The notes beneath the pieces were generated by a model that searched no databases, had not been told where the DNA came from, and saw only the letters and a program-made list of their open reading frames with translations. A DNA stretch of 64,000 nucleotides from Streptomyces sp. RPT161 (GTDB lineage: Bacteria; Actinomycetota; Actinomycetes; Streptomycetales; Streptomycetaceae), in assembly GCF_027533845.1 (NCBI RefSeq), contig NZ_JAPZVN010000002.1:310001-374000 (forward strand), in the 5' to 3' direction. The position numbers and the translations under genes are program-made. Shown here piece after piece: positions 17,007 through 50,220 of the stretch. Every line of letters begins with the position of its first letter. Positions within the stretch are counted from its first letter, which is position 1.

Positions 17007-17831
17007 TCACCGCCCCGCCCGCCCAGCATCGCTGAACGCCACCGGAGCCTCGAACGCCGCCCGGCGAGTAGCACGCCGCAGCGCCTTCAGTACGGGCGCG
17101 CCCAGGGCGAGGGTGAGTACGGCGGTCACCGCCGCCCGTGGCAGGTCCCAACCCATGGACGTCGCAAGGCAGTAGGCGACGAAGTGCGCGAGGTTCTCCG
17201 CCAGCGGCGCGCCCGGCAGATAGCCGACCCCCGAGGACAGGCCGCCGATGTACGGCCAGCCCTGGAGGTTCATCACCGTGCCGTAGAGCAGCGAGGACAC
17301 CACCCCGTACCCCGCCAGCATCACCAACTCGGCTCTCCCGCGCGGACGTTGCCACAGCAGTCCGGAACCCATGCCCACCCAGCCCATGCTGAGCATCTGG
17401 AACGGCATCCACGGTCCCACACCGCCGGTCAGCAGCGCGGAGGCGAACATCGACACCGCGCCCAGCACGAAGCCGAAGCCCGGACCGAGAACCCGGCCCG
17501 CCAGCACGATCAGGAAGAACATCGGCTCTATGCCCGCCGTCCCCGCGCCCAGCGGGCGCAGCGCCGCGCCCGCCGCCGCGAGCACCCCGAGCATCGCGAT
17601 CGCCTTGGCGTCCAGCCCGGTGTCGGCGATCGACGCCACCACCACCGCCAGCAGCAGCGGCAGCAGCCCGGCGAACAGCCACGGCGCGTCAGCGCTGTGC
17701 GCCAGCCCGGAGCCGGGGTCGGCCAACAGCGGCCAGCCGAACGCCGCGAGACCGACCAGCGACAGCAGTGCGAGCGCCACCGCCGACCGCGGCCCGAGCC
17801 GAACCGGCCTGATGTGCTCCGCGCGCCTCAT
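17007..17831 (-). CDS. ECF transporter S component (probable cobalamin-binding subunit)
   Basis: A 274-residue membrane protein with about six to seven helices. It has the S-component layout: an N-terminal basic stretch, GIEPMFFLIVLAGRVLGPGFG and LGAVSMFASALLTGGVGPWMP, then FQMLSMGWVGMGSGLLW. By family it captures substrate for the ECF energy-coupling module. It is the last gene of a minus-strand operon that begins behind a cobalamin riboswitch, so vitamin B12 or a precursor is the inferred substrate. Its ATG (17831) overlaps the ATPase stop by four bases. Confidence 0.85.
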   Translation of the reverse strand: MRRAEHIRPVRLGPRSAVALALLSLVGLAAFGWPLLADPGSGLAHSADAPWLFAGLLPLLLAVVVASIADTGLDAKAIAMLGVLAAAGAALRPLGAGTAGIEPMFFLIVLAGRVLGPGFGFVLGAVSMFASALLTGGVGPWMPFQMLSMGWVGMGSGLLWQRPRGRAELVMLAGYGVVSSLLYGTVMNLQGWPYIGGLSSGVGYLPGAPLAENLAHFVAYCLATSMGWDLPRAAVTAVLTLALGAPVLKALRRATRRAAFEAPVAFSDAGRAGR

Positions 17832-19447
17832 GCCCGCGCCTCGTCCGCCAGCGCCGCCGCGACCTGCGGAACCGTCAGCCACGGTCCCGGCTGGAGGATC
17901 TTCGCCACCTGCGGGGCGAAGGCGGGCGAGGAGACCACCACCTGCTCGGTACGGCCGTCGGCGACGACCTCACCGTCGGCGAGGATCACCACCCGGTGCG
18001 CCAGCTCCGCCGCCAACTCCACGTCATGCGTGGCCAGTACGATCGCGTGGCCGTCCGCCGCCAGCGCCCGCAGCCGGGTCACCAGCCGGGACTTGGCCGC
18101 GTAGTCGAGGCCCCGGGTCGGCTCGTCGAGCAGCAGCAGCGGTGGCCGGGCGGCCAGCACGACGGCCAGCGCCAGCGCCAGCCGCTGGCCCTCGGACAGG
18201 TCACGCGGATGCGTCTCGTCCGGTACGCCCGGAAGCAACTCCGTCACCAGCGCCCGGCAGGTGCCCGGCGCGGCGCCCGCGTCCTCGTCGGCGGCCGAGC
18301 ACTCGGCCGCGACCGTGTCCGCGTACAGCAGATCGCGCGGCTCCTGCGGCACCAGCCCGACCCGCCGCACCAGTTCACGCGGCGCCGTGCGGTGCGGGAC
18401 CACCCCGCCGACCCGTACCCCGCCGGAGGCGGGCTCGTGCAGACCGGTGAGCGTACCCAACAGGGTGGACTTCCCAGCGCCGTTGCGGCCCATCAGCGCC
18501 ACCGTCTCACCCGGCCGAACCGTCAGGTCGATCCCGCGCAGCGCCTCGGCCCGGCCGCGCCGCACCGAAAGCCCGGACACCTCGGCGACCGGTGCCGTCT
18601 TCTGCGGCGGAACCACCGGCGTCGGCCCGCGGTCCGCCAACCGCTCGCGCAGCGGACGCGCCGCCCGCCGGGCGTCCCGTACCGACAGCGGCAGCGGTGA
18701 CCAGCCCGCCAGCCTGCCCAAGCCGACGACCGGCGGGAACACCGGAGACGCCGCCATGATCTCGGCCGGATCCCCGATCACCGGGGGCATGCCCGGCTCG
18801 GCCAGCAGCACCACCTGGTCCGCGTACTGCACCACCCGCTCCAGCCGGTGCTCGGCGAGCAGCACCGTGGTGCCCAGGTCGTGCACCAGCCGCTGGAGCA
18901 CGGCCAGCACCTCCTCGGCCGCCGCCGGGTCAAGGGCCGACGTGGGCTCGTCCAGCACCAGCACCTTCGGATGCACGGTGAGCACCGATCCGATCGCCAC
19001 CCGCTGCCGCTGTCCGCCGGAGAGCGTGGCGATCGGCCGGTCCCGCAGCTCCGCCAGGCCCAGCAGGTCCAGCGTCTCCTCCACCCGCCGCCGCATCACG
19101 TCGGACGGCAGCCCCAACGACTCCATCCCGTAGGCGAGTTCGTACTCCACGGTGTCGGTGACGAAGTGCGCCACCGGGTCCTGGCCCACCGTGCCCACCA
19201 CGTCGGCGAGTTCACGCGGCCGATGGGTGCGGGTGTCCCGGTCCGCCACGGTGACCCGGCCGTGCAGTGTCCCGCCGGTGAAGTGCGGCACCAGGCCGCT
19301 GACCGCGCCCAGCAACGTGGACTTGCCCACCCCGGACGGGCCGACCAGCAGGCACAGCTCGCCCTCCGGGACGGTCAGCTCGACGTCCCGCAGCGCGGGC
19401 CGCGGCGCGCCCGGATAGCTGACGGAGACGTTGTCGAAGCGGATCAC
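17828..19447 (-). CDS. ECF transporter ATPase, two fused ABC domains (EcfA1-EcfA2)
   Basis: A 539-residue protein with two complete nucleotide-binding domains. Domain 1 has Walker A GPSGVGKST, signature LSGGQRQRV and Walker B VLVLDEPTS; domain 2 has GRNGAGKST, LSEGQRLALA and LLLLDEPTR. Each H-loop is present (LLAEHRLE, LATHDVEL). Fusion replaces the usual EcfA/EcfA' heterodimer. The GTG at 19447 forms a GTGA overlap with the T-component stop, indicating translational coupling. It powers uptake together with the T and S components on either side. Confidence 0.93.
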   Translation of the reverse strand: MIRFDNVSVSYPGAPRPALRDVELTVPEGELCLLVGPSGVGKSTLLGAVSGLVPHFTGGTLHGRVTVADRDTRTHRPRELADVVGTVGQDPVAHFVTDTVEYELAYGMESLGLPSDVMRRRVEETLDLLGLAELRDRPIATLSGGQRQRVAIGSVLTVHPKVLVLDEPTSALDPAAAEEVLAVLQRLVHDLGTTVLLAEHRLERVVQYADQVVLLAEPGMPPVIGDPAEIMAASPVFPPVVGLGRLAGWSPLPLSVRDARRAARPLRERLADRGPTPVVPPQKTAPVAEVSGLSVRRGRAEALRGIDLTVRPGETVALMGRNGAGKSTLLGTLTGLHEPASGGVRVGGVVPHRTAPRELVRRVGLVPQEPRDLLYADTVAAECSAADEDAGAAPGTCRALVTELLPGVPDETHPRDLSEGQRLALALAVVLAARPPLLLLDEPTRGLDYAAKSRLVTRLRALAADGHAIVLATHDVELAAELAHRVVILADGEVVADGRTEQVVVSSPAFAPQVAKILQPGPWLTVPQVAAALADEARA

Positions 19448-20580
19448 CGCTCGGCTCCCTTCGAGTCGGGCCGCGGGTCGCGGCGCGGCGCCGGTGCCAC
19501 GACCGCGGGCAGCAGCCCGAGCAACACCGCCGCCGCGGGCCACAACGGCAACGTCGGCGCACTCAGCGGTACCACCGGCGGGTTCAGCGCGGCCGGTTCA
19601 CTGGCCGCGGCGTGGATCAGCAGTGCGGCGACGGCCACCCCGGAGGCGGTGACCAGCCAGGCCCGGGCGCCCCAGTGGTCCGGCCGGTACCGGGTGCGTA
19701 CGCTGCGCCGGCCGCCCAGCCACAGCCCGGCCAGCGCCGCCGCGAGGCCCAGCACCAGCACCGGCAGGCCGAAGCCCGCGCCCTGCGCCGCCAGCAGCCC
19801 GTACGTTCCCGCGCACACCCCGAGCAGTCCGCCCAGCGTCAGCGCGGCGGTCAACCGCCTTACCCGGGGCGGGACTTCGGCGGTACGACCGTAGCCGCGA
19901 GCGTCCATCGCCGCCGCCAGCGCCACCGAGCGCTCCAACGCCCCCTCCAGCACCGGCAGTCCCACCTGGAGCAGCGCCTTGAAGCCCCGGTCGGCGCGAC
20001 CACGCATCCGCCGTGCGGCGCGCAGCCGTTGCACATCGGCCACCAGGTTCGGGGCGAACGTCATCGCCACCACCACCGCGACCCCCGCCTCGTACAGCGC
20101 CGCGGGCAGCGACTTGAGCAGCCGCGCCGGATTGGCCAGCGCGTTCGCCGCGCCCACGCACACCAGCAGGGTGGCCAGCTTCAACCCGTCGCACAGTGCG
20201 AACACCACCTGCTCGGCCCGCACCGGACCGCCGAGCCGCACCCCTTGCGCCCAGTGCGGCAACGGGACCTCCGGCAGCCGGAACAGCACATGGGTGCCCG
20301 GGATCGGCGAGCCCAGCAGGACCGCGAAAACGACCCGCAACGTCAGCACCAGCAGCCCGAGCTTGAGGAACGCACCGTACGAGCGGGCCCACGGCGCGTC
20401 GGTCCGGCGGACCGCCACCACATAGCCCGCCACCGCGACCAGAAGCAGGAGCAGCAGTGGATTGCTGGTGCGCGACGCGGCCGTCGCCAGGCCCAGCGCC
20501 CACAGCCACCAGGCGCCCGCGTGCAGCGCGTTGGAGCGGGTCGCCGCGGGCTGCCGCAACCAGCCGCGCGGCCCCGTCAC
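19444..20580 (-). CDS. ECF transporter T component (CbiQ/EcfT-like)
   Basis: A 378-residue membrane protein. It has N-terminal helices, then a long cytoplasmic coupling region with RRMRGRADRGF and the second conserved motif AMDARGYGRT, the Ala-Arg-Gly pair that contacts the ATPase. Further hydrophobic segments follow. It is longer at the C-terminus than typical EcfT (~260 residues), adding about three more helices. The GTG at 20580 overlaps the upstream stop as GTGA. It transmits ATPase movement to the S component. Confidence 0.88.
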   Translation of the reverse strand: MTGPRGWLRQPAATRSNALHAGAWWLWALGLATAASRTSNPLLLLLLVAVAGYVVAVRRTDAPWARSYGAFLKLGLLVLTLRVVFAVLLGSPIPGTHVLFRLPEVPLPHWAQGVRLGGPVRAEQVVFALCDGLKLATLLVCVGAANALANPARLLKSLPAALYEAGVAVVVAMTFAPNLVADVQRLRAARRMRGRADRGFKALLQVGLPVLEGALERSVALAAAMDARGYGRTAEVPPRVRRLTAALTLGGLLGVCAGTYGLLAAQGAGFGLPVLVLGLAAALAGLWLGGRRSVRTRYRPDHWGARAWLVTASGVAVAALLIHAAASEPAALNPPVVPLSAPTLPLWPAAAVLLGLLPAVVAPAPRRDPRPDSKGAER

Positions 20581-21221
20581 CCGGACCGCCGCCTACGGGA
20601 CTGCCAGACGGCGCCCGCGCCCAGCGCGACGACCACGGCGACGCCCGCGAACAGGCCGAGTGAGGGGCCGCCGCCCGACGCCTTGGGCCGCGCGGCGGCG
20701 GACGGCTCCGGACCGCGCCGCGGACTGGAGCCGACCTGCTCCCCGCAACCCGACTGCGGATAACCGGCGATCGCGCACACCAGCCCCGCCGAGCTGTAGC
20801 GCAGCGGCTTGGCCACCGCCGCCAACGCGTCGGCGGCACTGGCGTCCTGCGGCACCTGGGCGCACGCGGTGTGCGCGGGCGGTGGGGTGGCGCCGTTCGG
20901 GGCGTCGGCCGCAGTGCCGAAGTCCAGTACCAGCGCGACCCGCTTCATGCCGGGCCTGGTCTCGGTGTGGGCGCAGATCGTGCCGAACTCCGCACCGCCC
21001 CGCGGCTTCGCCGCGCTCGCCGAGTCCGCGCTGACCGCGAACCGCCAGCCCTCGACGTCGCCGTCGGACGGCCTGGCCATAGCGGGCCCGGTCCGCGCGT
21101 ACGACCAGGAGCCGCCGTCACGCTCCCAGAACGACCAGTAACGGTAGCCCTCGGCCTGCGCCGGGGGCGCGGCGAACAGCACCGTCGCCGCCAGCAGCGG
21201 CACGGCCAGCACTCTTCGCAT
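20577..21221 (-). CDS. SCO2322-family secreted, membrane-anchored protein
   Basis: A 214-residue protein with a signal peptide (MRRVLAVPLLAATVLFAAPPAQA) and a mature N-terminus starting EGYRYWSFWERDGGSWSYA. A Pro/Ala/Ser-rich linker precedes a C-terminal membrane helix and RRRR tail, so it is probably exposed on the outer face and anchored. Streptomyces homologues are annotated as SCO2322 family; the function is unknown. It has several paired Cys (GTICAHT, HTACAQV, GLVCAIAGYPQSGC). Start and stop overlap the flanking genes, so it belongs to the ECF operon and may help present the substrate. Confidence 0.85.
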   Translation of the reverse strand: MRRVLAVPLLAATVLFAAPPAQAEGYRYWSFWERDGGSWSYARTGPAMARPSDGDVEGWRFAVSADSASAAKPRGGAEFGTICAHTETRPGMKRVALVLDFGTAADAPNGATPPPAHTACAQVPQDASAADALAAVAKPLRYSSAGLVCAIAGYPQSGCGEQVGSSPRRGPEPSAAARPKASGGGPSLGLFAGVAVVVALGAGAVWQSRRRRSG

Positions 21222-22468
21222 CAGACCTGCTTCTTGTTGCGCATGCTGAACGCCCAGCCGATGCCGATGCCCGCGACCAGACCGGCGCCCACGATCCACC
21301 ACGCCGACGCGCCGCCGCCACCGCTGTCCTTGTGGTCCTCGGAAGCCGAGGGCGACGTGGACTCCTCGGGCCGCGGGCCGGTGTTGACCAGCTGCTGCAC
21401 GAGGTCGTTGCCCGCGAAGTCGTGCGGGCTGGCGCCGGTCGCGGCGGACGCCAGGATCAGCGAGCCCAGAGCGGCCGGGTCGCCCTTGGCCCACCCGGCG
21501 GCGTTCTTCGTCAGCCAGGTGTACGGCTTCTTCGCCGCTTCCAGGTGGTTGCCCGAGGCCAGCGCCAGTACCGCGTCGGCCGTGGTGCCGTAGTCCGGGG
21601 TCTTCTGGGTGGAGCCCGGCTGGGCGGTGGTCAGGTGGTCGCCGTTCGCGGAGAGCGTGGTGGCGAGGTACGCGGAGGCGGCGTCGGCGGCGGTGGCCGG
21701 ATCGTTCGCCTTCTGCGCCGCAGAGCAGTCGAACCCCTTCGGGTCGGTGTTCTTCGCGGGCGCGCCGATCACATACCCCTTGCCGAGCGCCGCGAAGGCC
21801 GCGTCCGCGGTCGCCTTGTCGTTGGGGGCGAGCGTGCCGGACTTGTCCGGCTGGTAGGCGAACGCTCCGCGCTGCGCGTCCTGCGCGCCCTTGGTGCCGC
21901 AGCCGATCTGGAACGACAACAGCGCGTCGTAGGGCGACTTGCCGCCCCTGGTCACGCTCGCCACGTCCTCGCCGGGGGCGGTCAGCGCACCGATCACCAC
22001 GGCCGTGGAGTTGGCGTCGCTGGGCGTGCCCGGCTGGTAGCCCCAGCCGCCGTCGCTGTTCTGCATCGACTTCAGCCAGTGCACGGCCTTGCTCACGGTG
22101 GTCCCGTGCCCGCCGACCGCCGCCAGCGCCTGGACGGCGACCGCGGTCGAGTTGGTGTCCTCGGTCTTCGGGGCGCACGACGTGTCCGGGTTGGCCCGGT
22201 AGGTGGCGAAGCCGCCGTCGGCGCACTGCTGCCCGACCAGCCAGTCCACGGCCTCCTTGGCCGGGGTGACCTTCACCGTGCTCAGCGCCAGCAGCGCGGT
22301 GGACTGCCGCCACACCCCGTTGTACGTGGGGTCCGCGCCGCCGTACAGGCCGACGGGCAGGCTGGACGTCGACGGGGACGGCGCCGCCGCGCCGAGGAGC
22401 GCGACGGCGGCCAGTGCGGCGGCGCACCGCGCGAGCGCGGCCGGACGCGGCCTGCGTGAGGGGGCCAT
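21221..22468 (-). CDS. surface alpha/alpha-barrel protein of the prenyltransferase/squalene-oxidase-repeat type
   Basis: A 415-residue protein with a signal peptide (residues 1-30), then repeated toroid units (WLVGQQCADGGFATYRAN, WLKSMQNSDGGWGYQPG, TWLTKNAAGWAKGDPAA) like those of terpene cyclases and of eukaryotic intrinsic factor/transcobalamin. A Ser/Glu/Gly-rich linker, one membrane helix and a basic tail (RNKKQV) follow. No DxDD or other cyclase catalytic motif is visible, so binding rather than catalysis is likely. First gene of the operon under a cobalamin riboswitch. The inference is a cell-surface cobalamin-binding protein feeding the ECF transporter. The start is ATG 22468. Confidence 0.85.
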   Translation of the reverse strand: MAPSRRPRPAALARCAAALAAVALLGAAAPSPSTSSLPVGLYGGADPTYNGVWRQSTALLALSTVKVTPAKEAVDWLVGQQCADGGFATYRANPDTSCAPKTEDTNSTAVAVQALAAVGGHGTTVSKAVHWLKSMQNSDGGWGYQPGTPSDANSTAVVIGALTAPGEDVASVTRGGKSPYDALLSFQIGCGTKGAQDAQRGAFAYQPDKSGTLAPNDKATADAAFAALGKGYVIGAPAKNTDPKGFDCSAAQKANDPATAADAASAYLATTLSANGDHLTTAQPGSTQKTPDYGTTADAVLALASGNHLEAAKKPYTWLTKNAAGWAKGDPAALGSLILASAATGASPHDFAGNDLVQQLVNTGPRPEESTSPSASEDHKDSGGGGASAWWIVGAGLVAGIGIGWAFSMRNKKQV

Positions 22469-22499
22469 GAGTCGGTTGCCTTTCGATGAGCGGAGCGCA

Positions 22500-22539
22500 G
22501 CCGGAGCCCGGCGCCGCGCGGGCGGCGCCGGGCTCCGGC
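22500..22539 (-). terminator. 17-bp hairpin between the cobalamin aptamer and the first operon gene
   Basis: Perfect 17-bp GC-rich stem (arms 22500-22516 and 22523-22539) with a six-base loop, 32 bases upstream of the ATG at 22468. It is probably the terminator or sequestering hairpin of the riboswitch expression platform. It lacks a U-run, so control could also be translational. Confidence 0.65.
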
Positions 22540-22596
22540 TCCGTATACCTCGACGGTGCCGGGGGTCGCGCGCAGCCGCGCCACCACCGGGAGCCG

Positions 22597-22703
22597 CTCG
22601 CGTACGCACGGGCACTCCGGCTGAGCGGACACTCCGTGAGCGTCCGCGTCACGGTTGCGGGTCAGCGCCGGAATTGCACCGGCTTTCCCCGTTCGTACGC
22701 GGA
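22597..22703 (-). promoter_or_regulatory. cobalamin (B12) riboswitch, compact form
   Basis: Read on the minus strand, the conserved core GGGGAAAGCCGGTGCAATTC continues as CGGCGCTGACCCGCAACCGTGA, and the B12 box AGCCGGAGTGCC follows. The ends pair perfectly over eight bases (CGCGTACG with CGTACGCG, 22694-22701 and 22599-22606), giving P1. At ~105 nt it is a short variant. It lies upstream of the five-gene ECF operon and should repress it when B12 is plentiful. Confidence 0.92.
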
Positions 22704-22765
22704 TGAAATTGTCCCGCCTACTTTACGCGGACCCGAGAGGGGCTCCTCGCCTGGCCGTGGGCTCG

Positions 22766-49810: not shown

Positions 49811-50220
49811 GCAGACGAGCCGAGCGGGCGGTCGCGTCGGAACCCCTGGTTCCGCCGAGGAACGTCCGGGCTCCACAGGGCAAGGTGGTGGGTAACGCCC
49901 ACCCGGGGTGACCCGCGGGACAGTGCCACAGAAAACAGACCGCCGGGCGCCGAAAGGCACCCGGTAAGGGTGAAACGGTGGTGTAAGAGACCACCAGCGT
50001 CCAGGGTGACCTGGACGGCTAGGTAAACCCCACCTGGAGCAAGGTCAAGAAGGGGCCGTCGCGAGACGGCCCTGCGCGGATGTTCGAGGGCGGCCCGCCC
50101 GAGTCCGCGGGTAGACCGCACGAGGTCAGCGGCAACGCTGACCCTAGATGGATGACCGCCACCCGGCGGGCCGCGAGGCCCCCGGGCACAGAACCCGGCG
50201 TACAGCTCGGCTCGTCTGCC
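49811..50220 (+). ncRNA. rnpB: RNase P RNA, bacterial class A
   Basis: The conserved cores are readable: CGAGGAACGTCCGGGCTCCA at the 5' part, ACAGTGCCACAGAAAACAGA, AAGGGTGAAACGGTGGTGTA, and AGATGGATGACCGCCACCC near the 3' end. The ends pair as P1 (GCAGACGAGC with GCTCGTCTGC). This is the catalytic RNA that matures tRNA 5' ends. TACGAT at 49796-49801 is a likely -10. Ends are good to a few bases. Confidence 0.97.

Follow-up and report, generated by a model that had tools for sequence, protein, structure and literature searches.

The 64,000-nucleotide stretch analysed here (the window; positions 310,001 to 374,000 of contig NZ_JAPZVN010000002.1 of Streptomyces sp. RPT161) carries a five-gene operon behind a cobalamin riboswitch, which we examine as a candidate corrinoid uptake system (Table 1). 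The operon encodes a SCO2321-family alpha/alpha-barrel protein (P0001) and a SCO2322-family protein (P0002), followed by an energy-coupling factor (ECF) transporter whose T subunit, two ATPases and S component are encoded together, all over their Pfam cut-offs. The initial annotation of this DNA described a riboswitch followed by genes for two anchored surface proteins, EcfT, EcfA-A and EcfS, and that description is confirmed by the model matches and by overlaps of 1, 4, 4 and 4 bases between neighbouring genes in the order from barrel to EcfS; the extent it proposed, 20577-22740, does enclose the leader and the first two genes, but the operon continues to 17007. Both surface proteins have a signal-like N-terminal stretch and, at the C-terminus, a membrane segment with a basic tail (read from the sequences); the anchor of P0002 matches GPS-CTERM at 34.7 bits (cut-off 28), and LPxTG-like tails in some relatives (e.g., at L061 and L111; loci are designated by L numbers, the window's own being L017) are consistent with extracellular anchoring. 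The best NCBIfam matches of EcfA-A' are ECF ATPase models, slightly below their cut-offs, and EcfS has relatives at 11 other loci, with 38-72% identity.

Table 1. Features of the riboswitch-led operon, in window coordinates
Feature	Position	Strand	Evidence
Cobalamin riboswitch aptamer, compact form, operon leader	22590..22745	-	RF00174 35.4 bits, E 2.5e-5
Perfect 19-bp hairpin, located after the aptamer and before the start codon; candidate expression platform, unconserved	22499..22540	-	19 pairs counted
SCO2321-family alpha/alpha-barrel protein (P0001), secreted, C-terminally anchored	21221..22468	-	NF053823 532 bits, cut-off 300; toroid Pfam models
SCO2322-family protein (P0002), secreted, anchored	20577..21221	-	NF040672 223 bits, cut-off 85
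EcfT, CbiQ-type transmembrane subunit	19444..20580	-	PF02361 30.4 bits, cut-off 25
EcfA-A', two ATPase domains in one chain, GTG start	17828..19447	-	PF00005, two stretches, 188.7 bits
EcfS, substrate-specific membrane subunit	17007..17831	-	PF12822 (ECF_trnsprt) 41.4 bits, cut-off 30.7

The operon set recurs under cobalamin riboswitches across the phylum. In the window, the compact riboswitch originally placed at 22597-22703 lies within the RF00174 match, the score of which is above the gathering threshold of 31.5. Twenty-two aligned leaders of the window's family share a near-invariant core, whereas their stem varies; compensatory changes are seen at 6 of the 20 pairs predicted. The covariance model built from these leaders (R1; the window and 21 others) was run on 57 loci, with L042, L045-L047, L063, L065, L068, L069 and L072 among the loci left out. 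It matches 30 of the 32 loci of the window's family, 22 of which form the training set; outside that set it matches 8 of the 10 remaining family loci (L128 and L133 are missed) and 21 of 24 distinct loci from outside the family (25 were given, L077 and L110 being one contig). At these 21 loci the match precedes the barrel gene, either within ~500 bases or at the 5' end of a long open reading frame call, except that at L110 a DUF4430 gene lies between the match and the barrel gene. The Rfam model alone detects fewer leaders than R1, because compact forms often score below its threshold. Among the 40 loci retrieved by SCO2321-profile match, barrel and EcfT are found together in 24 with the window proteins as queries (8 in the window's family and 16 outside it); these queries find EcfT in 31 of the 40, and family profiles partly trained on these loci find the barrel in all 40. 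Of 150 genomes sampled from the window's family, 115 carry a SCO2321 match over cut-off; across the phylum the figure is 9 of 296 genomes, and weaker matches are seen in 97 of the 296. A search of viral contigs with P0001 gave no match.

Between the aptamer and the start codon of the window operon, a 17-bp expression-platform hairpin had been described. The hairpin exists, with 19 perfect pairs rather than 17, in a leader stretch that folds at -89.9 kcal/mol (z -4.99). As a conserved expression platform it was rejected: of the 32 family loci, L128 and L133 have no recognisable core, and among the 30 that were examined only the window's own locus has it, the other 29 offering stems of at most 11 pairs or none of at least 8. 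A CGGCACCGTCGAGG-ATACGGA-like box (window ~22540-22561, minus strand) recurs in the same interval of several family leaders and may serve as the actual expression platform or, alternatively, as an internal promoter. In several streptomycete-type species (L117, as compared with L010; L012; L014; L120; L125) the conserved riboswitch core CCCGCAAC is broken by insertions, some of which share a CCCCAGTGCC...GGGCCTGGGAG-like repeat, and control may have been lost locally in this way. At two loci (L060:8226-9712 and L064:9318-10513) the barrel stands behind a cobalamin riboswitch with no complete ECF set in the stretch examined, and may work with another importer. Another locus (L074:7084-10674) has two barrel genes, each with its own upstream R1 match, adjoining one ECF set.

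In lineages other than the streptomycete one, the neighbour of EcfT is often a gene for a SCO2322-like domain with conserved cysteines (24 sequences), which ends in a W-rich stretch (YWsYW...GsW.ys..Ga...GdVEGW). The SCO2322 model matches 23 of the 24 domains at E values up to 0.01 (best 1.1e-7), none of them over the model's cut-off among the matches listed. Aligned with DUF4430 by hhalign, these domains give a probability of 92% (P 5.8e-7) over 77 columns, and the score in the occupied columns is 42.4; in the same columns the best of 200 column-shuffled DUF4430 alignments scores 21.3, and the reversed alignment gives 9.6. A DUF4430 profile (15 sequences) in turn meets the human haptocorrin beta domain among PDB sequences (4kki, E 4.4e-5), and also the transcobalamin-2 beta-domain entry (E 0.08). 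DUF4430 has been placed in the C-terminal region of TCN proteins (PMC4350170; this and the other papers cited here are represented by excerpts). The profile links thus form a chain from P0002 through the SCO2322-like domain and DUF4430 to the haptocorrin beta domain; each link of it was tested, and the chain speaks to the relationship of the domains rather than to B12 binding. Matches of the beta profile to open reading frames in L080 and L101 were set aside as likely low-complexity.

Human intrinsic factor, haptocorrin (transcobalamin-1) and transcobalamin-2 contain an alpha/alpha barrel, and bacterial relatives of the window operon also join the two kinds of domain. At 4 of the 40 loci (L043, L048, L057 and L073) barrel and beta domain occur in one chain, barrel first, with two tandem beta domains in the L057 protein; the beta domain is C-terminal in haptocorrin as it is in these bacterial fusions. 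The fusions L048:8129-10576 and L057:8454-11282 have a long C-terminal repeat region, which, judged by eye, we take to resemble cell-wall-binding repeats. In L110 the two kinds of beta protein stand in one operon, which consists of a 69.2-bit riboswitch followed by genes for a DUF4430 protein, the barrel, a SCO2322-like protein, EcfT and EcfA-A.

Profile comparison shows that both surface proteins are circularly permuted in the window's lineage. In native order the streptomycete SCO2322 domain aligns with its relatives' domain over 40 columns with a score of 68; after rotation, with the best cut falling between two halves, it aligns over 103 to 107 columns, nearly the whole domain, with a score of 103. 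In its native order the barrel is matched twice, in crossed fashion (199 columns with a score of 295; 99 columns with a score of 111), and rotation turns these into a single match of 296 columns and score 374. Of five control cuts of the barrel, three stay at the native score of ~295, one gives 198 and one (0.85) equals the chosen cut, we think because a gap-filled stretch makes the junction identical. Judged by eye, L061 and L063 combine a barrel that looks permuted with a beta domain of the usual order, so permutation of the barrel may have preceded that of the beta domain. At L111, in a metagenome-assembled genome labelled Actinomycetota, both surface proteins are in the streptomycete order.

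A second operon layout, in the order DUF4430, EcfT, EcfA-A, EcfS, barrel, was examined at 21 loci (L042 and L140-L159), most of which were chosen for closely spaced barrel and DUF4430 matches. The DUF4430 gene is accordingly found at 20 of the 21, a count that is not independent of that choice; at L159, which has the second layout, this gene is not in the stretch examined. EcfS and barrel are fused at 6 of the 21 loci (L042, L140, L141, L142, L143 and L156), and the L042 fusion scores over the Pfam cut-offs of both PF07155 (26.8 versus 26.7) and PF13243 (59.7 versus 26.1). Riboswitch matches were obtained at 4 of 17 second-layout loci with the Rfam model and at 5 of 21 with R1 (E up to 0.1), or 6 of 21 when combined, and five of these six are loci with an S-barrel fusion. 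At L042, L142, L143 and L156 the riboswitch match and the DUF4430 gene are ~1 kb apart, and at L142 and L143 a weaker second DUF4430 match lies inside that interval. Among 20 further DUF4430 loci, a separate set with short flanks, one had a cobalamin riboswitch.

The operon very probably serves corrinoid uptake as such. With a probability of roughly 60% for the whole chain of events, we propose that its surface proteins form a split alpha/beta corrinoid clamp that hands B12 to the ECF importer. Judging by its family, the riboswitch would permit expression when cobalamin is scarce, and the operon's product would in turn repress it. At the outer surface of the membrane, the barrel and the DUF4430-like beta protein would form a two-part clamp analogous to the alpha and beta domains of intrinsic factor, haptocorrin and transcobalamin; this pair would capture B12 or another corrinoid and pass it to EcfS, and EcfT with EcfA-A' would drive its entry. 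The S-barrel fusions keep the binder beside the S component, which makes such a hand-off plausible. The likeness to intrinsic factor that was suggested at the outset is thus retained, on account of the DUF4430/haptocorrin beta domain and the fusions in relatives and not for the reason originally given, which was the barrel fold alone. A wider evolutionary reading is tentative: the vertebrate B12 binders may have true relatives in this phylum, and an ancestral alpha-beta protein may have been split and both halves permuted in the window's lineage, the resulting pair loading B12 onto an EcfS that is barrel-fused in other lineages. If this were true, the family would be an old one of bacterial uptake proteins, to which the vertebrate intrinsic factor, haptocorrin and transcobalamin are late additions.

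Several findings weigh against the clamp, beginning with the barrel, which by itself is a generic toroid and not a pointer to intrinsic factor. Its profile finds squalene-hopene and other terpene cyclases as the closest solved relatives among PDB sequences (1e-39), with complement C3d lower in the list and neither transcobalamin nor intrinsic factor among the best 60 of 73 matches. A phmmer search with P0001 and P0002 gave no direct route to transcobalamin, and PF01122 (eukaryotic cobalamin-binding protein) has no match to P0001 at E values up to 1; the best PF01122 score among 16 barrels is 18.9 bits, in one relative (cut-off 25), and none of the 296 genomes has a match, nor did the control genomes. 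Structure prediction of the barrel for comparison with transcobalamin, as proposed in the initial annotation, gave a weak model (alignment with two other rows; mean pLDDT 60, pTM 0.53) whose fold matches (VIA) are generic toroids: transcobalamin does appear, with Z 10.6 at VIA ranks 49-50, but drimenyl diphosphate synthase, of the terpene cyclases, reaches Z 16.8. Intrinsic factor is not among the best 50 fold matches of this model listed, which excludes nothing. The structure models are poor in general, the L110 beta domain, predicted from a single sequence, having a mean pLDDT of 38.

The chain from P0002 to haptocorrin has weak places as well. The SCO2322-like profile finds nothing credible among PDB sequences; the Pfam DUF4430 model (PF14478) is reached by none of the 24 SCO2322-like domains, nor by P0002, which meets DUF4430 by its second half only (P 3.3e-4, probability 38%). 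Between haptocorrin and transcobalamin-2 in the DUF4430 profile search rank an uncharacterised Ruminococcus protein (0.009) and an unrelated translation factor (0.02), so that the haptocorrin match alone stands clear. As to regulation, 3 of the 24 loci outside the window's family have no R1 leader match (L044, where the contig ends, L066 and L079), and 15 of the 21 second-layout loci (L140, L144-L155, L158 and L159) have no cobalamin riboswitch match by Rfam or R1; some of these riboswitch-less importers may carry another substrate. The operon may also be redundant, given the other BtuFC(D)-like importers of the genome and its cobaltochelatase CobN. The riboswitch, the gene order, the domain relationships, the fusions and the permutations are observed here; that the surface proteins bind B12, act as a pair and hand the vitamin on is inferred.

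Since the riboswitch and the ECF parts are independent of how the surface proteins are read, the ECF module could import a corrinoid or a precursor while the surface proteins act as a scaffold, or as a corrinoid-trimming or remodelling enzyme, in place of a clamp. Such a role would suit a barrel whose sequence is nearer to cyclase and prenyltransferase toroids than to transcobalamin, and ECF-CbrT restores B12-dependent growth in an E. coli strain, which implies that an ECF importer can function without partners of this kind (PMC5997447). We nevertheless consider it unlikely, as the surface pair recurs in two ECF operon layouts and some lineages have a fusion of the barrel with the beta domain or with EcfS. 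A DUF4430-type beta domain together with an alpha/alpha barrel is, moreover, the pair found in haptocorrin, and P0001 lacks a DxDD string, the catalytic motif of class II terpene cyclases. It is distinctly improbable that the ECF module carries cobalt or another B12-tied substrate, to which the surface proteins would then bind. EcfT does match CbiQ, a family named for cobalt transport, but CbiQ-type T subunits serve many ECF transporters, and no match to CbiM or CbiN (Pfam) was found among the five genes of the window operon. EcfS has no close solved relative, the only matches among solved S components being to folate S components at E values of 2.6 and 2.8, and cobalamin riboswitches also precede cobalt transport genes in S. 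lividans (PMC8079986); set against this, two large surface domains of the B12-binder type would be unexpected for a cobalt ion.

That the barrel is a secreted terpene-cyclase-like or thioester-domain-like protein merely sharing the operon would explain why the Pfam squalene-cyclase and TED models score over cut-off for P0001; P0002 contains GCGEQ, a string similar to the thioester motif of complement. This explanation is very hard to credit for a barrel that is secreted, has no DxDD and is conserved with ECF genes; the GCGEQ string is located in the other protein and, being unconserved (GCGDP at L050, absent at L111), was dropped as a coincidence.

The clamp proposal adds dedicated extracellular partners to components that are already known, namely cobalamin riboswitches and ECF B12 importers. 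The ECF B12 transporters CbrT of L. delbrueckii and CbrUVT resemble the window system in their S and T components, two ATPases and link to B12, whereas the window has a dedicated operon, fused ATPases and two extracellular proteins. The CbrUVT set, reportedly first predicted in 2009, may include the window's transporter. In the excerpted sources, CbrUVT is listed beside BtuBCDF as B12 transporters (PMC6593275), and CbrT is assigned to TCDB family 32, 'The Cobalamine Precursor (B12-P) Family' (PMC3654945). With intrinsic factor, haptocorrin and transcobalamin the bacterial system shares the alpha/alpha barrel and, judging by profile comparison, probably the DUF4430-type beta domain, joined barrel first in the four fusions; in the window, unlike in that family, each half has a gene of its own, and each is circularly permuted and anchored to the membrane. 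Since PF01122 gives no match to the window's barrel and the two domains sit in separate proteins, we do not class the window system in the intrinsic factor family. The B12-capture lipoproteins of Bacteroides are exposed at the surface, as is proposed for the window's pair, but belong to a Gram-negative system (PMC6143338, excerpt).

The two surface proteins are members of NCBIfam SCO2321_fam (NF053823) and SCO2322_fam (NF040672), entries whose names carry no function. In the open-access literature, outside which most subscription journals lie, we found no report that connects B12 with proteins of the SCO2321 or SCO2322 families or with a bacterial barrel accompanied by DUF4430; a paper on skin-delivery peptides names SCO2321 (PMC9237094, excerpt). 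The surface pair, the domain assignment, the fusions and the double permutation were likewise not found in open-access print, and prior reports may exist elsewhere. If the clamp reading is right, it would provide a function for two named but unexplained protein families (SCO2321 and SCO2322), link the bacterial DUF4430 domain to B12, and bring a bacterial relative into the question of how intrinsic factor and transcobalamin arose.

The genome contains eight cobalamin riboswitches over cut-off. One of 86.6 bits (L113) precedes genes for a PF01497 binder and a BtuC-like permease, and a sub-threshold match (L112, 28.9 bits) precedes genes for a PF01497 binder, a BtuC-like permease and an ABC ATPase; other riboswitches are found at CobN, B12-independent methionine synthase and ribonucleotide reductase alpha. 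The NCBIfam Btu scores of the L112 and L113 proteins are below the curated cut-offs, and several of these proteins score as well or better with models of putative F420-0 transporters, which likewise stay below cut-off; the name BtuFC(D)-like therefore rests on resemblance and on the riboswitch. BtuFCD is also an ATP-driven B12 importer, but uses a PF01497-type binder and a FecCD-type permease, neither of which is in the window operon, and none of the five PF01497 places in the genome is on the window's contig. The view that the ECF transporter operates instead of BtuFCD was mistaken, with two BtuFC(D)-like systems standing behind riboswitch matches elsewhere in the genome; the ECF system is most likely additional to other B12 importers. 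Elsewhere in the window, a bacterial RNase P RNA of class A is encoded at 49816-50218 (289 bits).

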